Positions 49,401 through 54,629 of a DNA stretch of 64,000 nt are shown piece by piece. The notes beneath the pieces were generated by a model. That model was given only the letters and a program-made list of their open reading frames with translations, was not told the DNA's origin and did not search any database. Positions within the stretch are counted from its first letter, which is position 1. Each line of letters opens with the position of its first letter. The DNA comes from Gigantopelta aegis (taxonomy: Eukaryota > Mollusca > Gastropoda > Neomphalida > Peltospiridae): NCBI RefSeq assembly GCF_016097555.1, contig NC_054709.1, forward strand, positions 28,705,973 to 28,769,972. The letters run 5' to 3'. Both the position numbers and the translations under genes were made by a program.

Positions 49401-52400
49401 AAATGCATAGCTACCTAATGTACTTAAGGTGATCTTAGTGCTAAGATTGGTCCATGGAACGGGGCCCATTCCACAAAGTTATCTTAGCATTAAGATCATC
49501 TTAAATGCATAGCTACCTAATGTACTTAAGGTGATCTTAGTGCTAAGATTGGTCCATGGAACGGGGCCCAGAACAAAGTTATCTTAGCGTTAAGATCATC
49601 TTAAATGCATAGCTACCTAATGTACTTAAGGTGATCTTAGTGCTAAGATTGGTCCATGGAACGGGCCCCATTCCACAAAGTTATCTTAGCGTTAAGATCA
49701 TCTTAAATGCATAGCTACCTAATGTACTTAAGGTGATCTTAGTGCTAAGATTGGTCCATGGAACGGGCCCCATTCCATAAAGTTATCTTAGTGTTAAGAT
49801 CATCTTAAATGCATAGCTACCTAATGTACTTAAGGTGATCTTAGTGCTAAGATTGGTCCATGGAACGGGCCCCATTCCACAAAGTTATCTTAGCGTTAAG
49901 ATCATCTTAAATGCATAGCTACCTAATGTACTTAAGGTGATCTTAGTGCTAAGATTGGTCCATGGAACGGGGCCCAGAACAAATTTTACAAGGGGGGGGG
50001 GGGGTAATTTTCTTTTGCCCAGCAATCCCCTCCTGACAAAAAAAAAAGGTCCCGTTTTTAATTTAAAAGTGTCATTTTTGTCTAGCATGGGAAGTCCCTA
50101 GTTTCTATACAGCTGTGCCCTGATTTAAGAGAAAGTTGGCTATCGAAAAACAGGTGACTGCTTCTTTTTAACAAAAAAATTTCTAAGAAATCTGCATTTT
50201 TTATTATGAAATATTTTTGCTTCTAGCTATTTTTTAATACTACTAGTTTTGTTTTAAGAAAATCTTTAAAGGGACATTCCTGAGTTTGCTGCATTGTAAG
50301 ATGTTTCTGACTCATAAAATACTTCTACGATTAAACATATTTAAACAAATTAAACATATTTTCTTGTTTAGAATATCAGTGTCTGTATATTCAATGTGTT
50401 TCTGGTCGTCTTAATATTTGTAAGAAGCCCAAACTGGATTTTGTCTTCAAATAATTTCGTATGTAGGAAAAAATAATATTTTAGGAAATAAAATGAAATT
50501 TAACCTGGTACAAATATTAGAACAATCAGAAACACGTTTAATATACAGCCACTAATATTTTATGCAAAAAAATATATTTGATATGTAATTAAAAAGGTCT
50601 CTGTTAGTCAATAACATCTTAAAAATTGCAACAAACTCAGAAATGTCTTTTAAAAATACAAATATTTTCTGTAACAAGGATTTTGTTTCTGGCACAGTGC
50701 TGCTGCAAAATCAGAACATCGACTACTACAGCATCGACTGTCACTGCTGACACTGCAGCGTCATACCGATGGGCACAGCACTCGTGAAATCCAGATGATG
50801 GAGATGGCGGGGGATGCGGATTCATTGAAACGACACTTCACAGATAGTCTCAATGACCAGTTAGTATAACAAGGCTCAAAATTCCCAAATCTATTGTAAC
50901 CCAAATTCAGACTTACAGTTTTATATTGGTAAATCATCATTTCTTAGTAGTAGTAGTGTTGGGATAAAGTGCTTCTACTAGCAGTAGCTAGTGGTAGAAT
51001 GCTGGGGCCTAATTCACTACAGTCTCACAACTTTGCGATATCGAAGTGCAATGTTAAAAGACTTGAATAGAGGATGCTTTGTTGTCTAGCAGAGCCGAAG
51101 AGACCTTTGTGAATTAGGCCCCTGGATTCTCAAACTGAGAGACCGTGGTCGAATCCCTTCATTGGAGGTTAATTTTTTGGTAACAGAAAAATAAACCTTC
51201 ACTGAGGGGATTCAAACCAGAGACCCTCACTGTGAGAGTCCAGTTCTCAACCACCAGCTATTGCCAGTAGGAACACTTTATTCCAAGACTATTACTAAAA
51301 AAGGTTGAGTTGCCAATACAAAATTGTAATTTTTAATTAGTGTAACCCGAATTTAGAATTACAGTTTTGTATTGGTAACTCATCATTTCTTGAGCTTGTT
51401 ACTTCAACACTTCACAGATAGTCTAAATGATAGATGGTATAGCAGAGCTCAAAAATACTAAATCTAGTGTAACCCGAATTCAGAATTACAGTTTTGTATT
51501 GGTAACTCATCATTTCTATTGCTTTTTGTTTCACTTCTGAAACACCAGTTAGTGTTGCAGAACACTTCACAGATTAATATTACAGGACATTTCATTGATA
51601 GTCTGAATTAGTATTACAGGTCATTTCACTGATGGTCTGAATTAGTATTACAGGACATTTCACTGATGGTCTGAATTATTATTAAGGGCATTTCACTGAT
51701 AGTCTGAATTATTATTACAGGATATTTCACTGATAGTCTGAATGATTATTACAGGATATTTTCACTGATGGTCTGAATTAGTATTACAGGGCATTTCACT
51801 GATAGTCTGAATTATTATTACAGGACATTTCAATGATAGTCTGAATTAGTATTACAGGACATTTCACTGATAGTCTGGATTATTATTACAGGACATTTTC
51901 ACTGATGGTCTGAATTATTATTACAGGACATTTCACTGATGGTCTGAATTATTATTACAGGACATTTCACTGATAGTCTGAATTCGTATTACAGGGCATT
52001 TCACTGATAGTCTGAATTATTATTACAGGGCATTTCACTGATGGTCTGAATTATTATTACAGGACATTTCACTGATAGTCTGAATTATTATTACAGGACA
52101 TTTCACTGATGGTCGGAATTAGTATTACAGGGCATTTCACTGATAGTCTGAATTATTATTACAGGGCATTTCACTGATAGTCTGAATTAGTATTACAGGA
52201 CATTACACTGATAGTCTGAATTCGTATTACAGGACACTTCACAGATATAGTCTGAATGACCAGTTCGTAATACAGGACACTTCACAGATATAGTCTGAAT
52301 GACCAGTTAGTATTACAGGACACTTCACAGATATAGTCTGAATGACCAGTTAGTATTACAGGACACTTCACAGATAGTCTGAATGACCAGTTAGTATTAC

Positions 52401-54629: not shown

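Follow-up and report, generated by a model that had tools for sequence, protein, structure and literature searches.

Minisatellites that duplicate an exon-intron boundary, known as mirages, have been described in amphioxus from the globin genes BflGb6 and BflGb9 as well as from Adh3, troponin C and PGBD5 (PMC3087553, PMC3902484). They are found at 5' or 3' sides and have units of 10-160 bp, of which many but not all carry AG/GT signals; length instability is reported for them, as is undisturbed regular splicing (PMC3087553, PMC3902484). The array analysed here, which occupies an intron of a RUNDC3-like gene of the gastropod Gigantopelta aegis, shares three structural features with the mirages and, as judged from its sequence, fits the same class. 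Its tandem unit straddles an exon-intron boundary (it contains the donor and 28 nt of exon 9, and an acceptor at exon 3 is duplicated too), its units of 34, 41 and 43 nt are of minisatellite length, within the range given for the amphioxus cases, and splice signals are present in many but not all of them, a GTT[A/C]GT site being found in 17 of the 18 long units and in none of the 19 short ones. It differs from the amphioxus cases in that the host is a mollusc, in that 37 short units (34-43 nt) stand beside older copies of about 110 nt, and in that two such repeats occur in one gene, with further cases among 34 surveyed exons. Among the papers listed in searches of the mollusc, oyster and gastropod literature (15 of 23 hits in one of them), none dealt with such repeats in a mollusc, judging by title and the start of the abstract, which does not prove their absence.

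Two other systems invite comparison. Intron gain by internal tandem duplication, reportedly described by Gao and Lynch in 2009 and by Zhuo in 2007 and apparently also treated in PMC4974935, likewise involves a duplication that carries splice signals, but the RUNDC3 duplicate sits inside an existing intron, and a new intron derived from it would be hypothetical. In intronic VNTRs that affect splicing in human genes, the unit is not generally known to duplicate the edge of an adjacent exon. Like them, the RUNDC3 array is a tandem array inside an intron and might alter splicing; unlike them, it is built of copies of the neighbouring exon edge, and an effect on splicing is only putative.

The window, to which positions refer unless a survey locus is named, is the whole stretch of 64,000 nt that was analysed. 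It belongs to a 1.15-Gb assembly in which PF14830, a haemocyanin domain family characteristic of molluscs, has five matches; as these lie on two unplaced contigs, which could be foreign, they make a molluscan origin probable. Its plus strand encodes the RUNDC3-like gene in ten coding exons that join into a single open frame with no internal stop. A Pfam profile search identified a RUN domain (PF02759, E 4.9e-31), and the nearest solved chains to this domain are rap2 interacting protein x (3.2e-30) and RUFY3 (2.2e-29), which show membership in the RUN family, not RUNDC3 as such. The name RUNDC3 is based on matches, the coiled coil included, to an approximate human RUNDC3A sequence: the coiled-coil exon shares 54% identity over 57 residues with this reference, and by that comparison RUNDC3-type sequence extends beyond the RUN domain. 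Exon 9 had no match to this human sequence, and an early Pfam scan of positions 20000-35000 in two of the three frames found no domain. On the minus strand of the window, a 355-residue open frame lies at 34113-35180, which by eye we take to be Tc1/mariner-type transposase-like. The features around exon 9 are as follows:

50698-50859, plus strand: RUNDC3 exon 9, phase 2 in and out, with an open frame to exons 8 and 10 without a stop
50832-50859, plus strand: tail of exon 9, its last 28 nt, copied into the array (repeat family, and genome matches starting at 50832/50833)
50860-50944, plus strand: GTTAGT donor and the 85-nt start of intron 9, present also in the older long units (85-86% in the copy at 51407-51517)
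51407-51517, plus strand: older long-unit copy of the exon 9 edge and intron start, donor decayed (86% over 112 nt)
51573-52232, plus strand: block of units of about 34 nt, 19 cores, no donor, mostly with TTACAG acceptor-like sites (TRF and core scan)
52233-52992, plus strand: block of 18 units of 41/43 nt that contain the exon tail, joined in 17 of them by GTTAGT or GTTCGT, mostly followed by TTACAG (TRF, unit list and core scan)
52954-53115, plus strand: another older copy of the long unit (71-75% match), situated at the array's 3' end
53444-54629, plus strand: RUNDC3 exon 10, the last coding exon

An earlier note on this DNA had claimed that exon 9 ends before GTTAGT and is followed by an array of copies of its edge, and both observations are borne out. 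The exon ends in phase 2 with GATAGTCTCAATGACCA followed by GTTAGT (donor context CCA/GTTAGT), and in intron 9 TRF calls repeats at 51573-52257 (period 34) and 52224-52992 (period 43), which form a tandem array of 37 units at 51573-52992, namely 19 of about 34 nt and then 18 of 41 or 43 nt. The range given in that note, 50820-52990, does contain the array, but its first ~700 nt consist of an inserted element and older long-unit copies. The assertion that every unit has its own GTTAGT went too far, as this motif is present in 14 of the 18 units of the long block, with GTTCGT in three and neither in one, and is missing from all short units. The inserted element, at 50945-51300 between the exon 9 edge and the next long-unit copy, shows, by eye, inverted arms and a tRNA-like stretch.

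The longer units are copies of the last 28 nt of exon 9, of its donor and of the start of the intron. A 40-mer across the exon edge is 95% identical (38 of 40 nt) to three 41-nt units; whole-genome searches pair the exon edge with the array query (E 1e-8) and the 112-nt stretch of exon edge and intron start with the copy at 51407 (E 1.6e-27), so that the likeness of exon edge and array is not due to chance. A core scan gave 39 matches, which are exon 9 itself, one older copy (51410), the 19 short and the 18 long units, and the 9-mer CCAGTTAGT occurs 16 times in the window, each time in exon 9 or intron 9. Searches of the 1.15-Gb assembly with long and short unit queries returned 4 and 12 matches, only in this intron and exon edge, and a single copy of the RUNDC3 array locus. 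Such a search leaves very frequent words aside and evaluates its top-ranking candidates alone, which makes the uniqueness of the units strong and not absolute. Since the units were matched only in intron 9 and at the exon edge, an origin of the array in place is probable. The possibility that a dispersed repeat or transposon brought in the exon edge was considered and rejected, as among the candidates scored both unit types matched only intron 9.

We consider it likely that the array is a mirage-type minisatellite, derived from a local duplication of the exon 9 edge and tolerated as intron. A local tandem duplication would have included the 28-nt tail of exon 9 together with the donor and some 85 nt of intron. 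Older, diverged copies of the longer unit flank the array, and for this reason the longer duplication probably came first and the short sub-unit expanded inside it; this 41-nt sub-unit would have expanded later via slippage or unequal exchange, both the order and the mechanism being our reconstruction, and would have given rise to the 43-nt variant (with an additional AT) and the 34-nt variant (with the donor lost). The real exon would be the outermost copy, under coding selection and still working. Duplications that straddle an exon edge may be tolerated because the outer exon copy stays whole, and at exon 9 the array would be borne as intron since the outermost, real copy is intact and functional. 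After the duplication, the array would grow like an ordinary minisatellite.

Exon 9 is not the only exon of this gene with repeats at its edge:

37680-38026, plus strand: second splice-edge repeat, the exon 3 acceptor with the first 42-50 nt of the exon, in three copies (copy comparison and TRF)
44747-45663, plus strand: 68-nt array starting 5 nt past the end of exon 7
48504-48792, plus strand: 60-nt array ending 9 nt ahead of the start of exon 8

The repeat at exon 3 includes a 94% copy at 37680-37731 and a 54-nt TRF repeat at 37897-38026; an inserted element, bordered on either side by a matching 14-nt sequence, interrupts the first of the three copies, and AG is intact in both decoys. The copied stretch encodes RUN-domain residues and aligns to a solved RUN domain, and its position in this conserved domain identifies the exon as the source at exon 3. 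Exon 7 has an apparent GC donor (AAG/GCAAGT, 44742-44748) with the 68-nt array within 5 nt, and its polypyrimidine tract and acceptor (44540-44585) resemble, by eye, the tail, rich in T and C, of a dispersed element (AATAAAACATTTCCTTCCTTCC) found repeatedly in the window. In a plain coverage test of the RUNDC3 gene, two of 18 splice sites lay inside a near repeat, compared with 31% of window bases covered, which is no excess.

We surveyed exon edges in the same genome at myosin head and RUN domain matches, chosen by match score and not by repeats, and counted as near repeats same-strand copies at most 700 nt apart, some of which need not be tandem arrays. From 80 myosin matches, 30 exons entered the first pass and 28 the edge test; eight RUN matches gave six exons, and none of 124 kinesin matches entered the survey. 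Stops within the match excluded L002, L005, L037, L042 and L045, L053 was overlooked, and L041 (site similar to that of L044) and L049 (weak sites) were dropped after the first pass. For L001, L003 and one L060 exon the acceptor was placed manually, the script having picked an upstream site, and the remaining boundaries are the best-scoring sites of the script and thus computed, not proven.

A first look at 28 rows, representing 27 distinct exons, found repeat overlap in six. In the first pass, a near repeat extended 10 nt or more into the matched coding sequence of nine of 36 exons (counting L066, which has repeats on its acceptor side only), and at a width of ±60 nt, introduced in this pass, 14 of 72 boundaries (19%) were positive compared with 10.8% of control positions. 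With computed splice sites, a near repeat takes in at least 10 nt of exon in eight of 34 exons, and six of these eight have three or more copies of the junction: at myosin donors eight copies in L060 (mostly 80 nt apart, GT intact in all), six in L070 and five in L057, and at the acceptors of RUN genes nine in L001, 24 in L003 and three in L008. The other two, L073 and L059, contain only old, diverged or single copies (zero and one junction copies).

Of the 68 splice sites, 15 have a repeat edge at most 60 nt away, the control mean being 7.3 (P 0.004). At other widths the counts were 7 against 2.7 (20 nt, P 0.016), 12 against 5.1 (40 nt, P 0.004) and 22 against 10.8 (100 nt, P 0.0004), all P values being uncorrected for the four widths. 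When RUNDC3 was added, 20 of 86 boundaries were within 60 nt of a repeat edge against 9.6 (P 0.0014); five of its 18 boundaries count, among them the exon 7 acceptor beside the apparent dispersed element. Controls were random positions in the same loci, away from the survey exons. These figures suggest an about twofold enrichment of repeat edges at splice sites, a modest excess from a small sample with computed boundaries and from a test that was devised, not blind, after the first look had hinted at the pattern. The origin of the exon 9 array would be one instance of a process that looks frequent in this genome.

Two of the surveyed arrays deserve description. In L060 (3158-3868), the end of a myosin exon (CIDLIER) and its GTGAGT donor form an array of mostly 80-nt units, the repeats being for the most part 97-99% alike, and a genome search of best candidates matched it only at its own locus (five matches). 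In L003 (1-1548, reverse strand, around position 77207671 of its contig), about 24 copies of an acceptor junction lie upstream of a RUN exon; the array is open in the frame of the exon over all 515 codons examined, against 25 and 71 stops in the other frames, and each of the listed spacings between units is divisible by three. It may represent repeated coding sequence or an in-frame reservoir of acceptors, and is the most suggestive case for real use of decoys, although the pattern was noticed post hoc and could be chance.

Decoy splice sites are kept often, not always. Of 77 junction copies with a likeness of 72% or more, 66 have an intact splice dinucleotide, which shows 8% mismatch compared with 15% at other positions; units from which the site was deleted, for instance the 19 short RUNDC3 units, do not enter this count. 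L070 is an exception (one of six intact).

As for splicing of the RUNDC3 transcript, the array is most likely removed as inert intron, and in normal splicing 50859 is probably joined to 53444, with the decoys passed over. The spliceosome would take the first donor, defined by the upstream exon 9 acceptor, and the array would leave with the intron. By an approximate scoring matrix, the donor of exon 9 is the weakest of the gene (3.3 bits), 15 decoy donors have the same 9-mer, and some GT sites of intron 9 outside the array score higher (for example 50929, at 5.6), so that faithful choice of the first donor is not self-evident. As anatomy, the decoy donors proposed in the earlier note are thus sound. 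They could form a regulatory array, in which weak repeated sites compete for splice factors and slow or tune the removal of intron 9, perhaps with intron retention or unproductive transcripts as a result. The identity of the 15 decoys to the authentic weak donor and the frequent retention of decoy dinucleotides described above are in line with this, but the nearest intact decoy (51548) lies 688 nt downstream of the real donor, the donor has been lost entirely from the 19 short units, and normal splicing is reported for the amphioxus cases (PMC3087553, PMC3902484). We regard such a regulatory role as improbable.

Slightly less probable still is that array acceptors and donors extend the protein's tail with a single 30-nt insert or a few of them. 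The earlier note had proposed open micro-exons in the right phase, and nine of the 14 units with AG..GT do provide such an open 30-nt insert, but five contain a stop; a fifteenth candidate, at 53049, is outside the array and also has a stop. The acceptor-like sites of the short units mostly score 5.7-7.9 by the same matrix, comparable to the weaker of the nine real acceptors of the gene (5.7-15.4), yet no donor is present in these 19 of the 37 units; in the long block, the donors are weak and the acceptor-like sites, mostly at 5.0, fall below every real acceptor. Moreover, successive candidate units are separated by 13 nt in 10 of 14 gaps, which is below the minimum length of an intron.

The least probable alternative, and in our estimate a very improbable one, is that a pre-existing minisatellite gave exon 9 its end and donor, as might be argued from the missing match of exon 9 to the approximate human sequence, but the units occur nowhere else among the best candidates searched in the genome, and the copied exon parts at exon 3 and at the myosin and RUN exons lie in conserved domains, so that the exon came first there. 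The opposite direction, from exon to array, would follow for exon 9 by analogy with these cases and from the units being found nowhere else; it is not proven, because the exon 9 tail is without a clear relative outside this genome. That the exon edge has been amplified together with its donor, as had been claimed, is supported by the 95% identity, by the confinement of the units to this place and by the parallel cases in conserved domains.

The local duplication of the exon 9 edge, tolerated as intron, would then belong to a wider phenomenon: our small survey suggests that splice-edge repeats, known from amphioxus, are common in this molluscan genome too, and their apparent abundance outside amphioxus is the notable part. 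A broader proposal, which we put forward as speculative and rather doubtful, is that splice junctions are favoured places for the seeding or retention of tandem duplications, with about one fifth of conserved exons accompanied by decoy arrays that are mostly intact and in some cases frame-neutral (L003). Where arrays are frame-neutral, the choice of decoys could yield in-frame variants and provide raw material for the gain of introns. Arrays of decoy splice sites are a proposed route to new introns, and near-perfect decoys beside the real site are a natural test of how the spliceosome chooses its sites. Several cases among a few dozen exons of a mollusc would open what had been a curiosity to counting, mapping and checking by ordinary RNA sequencing.
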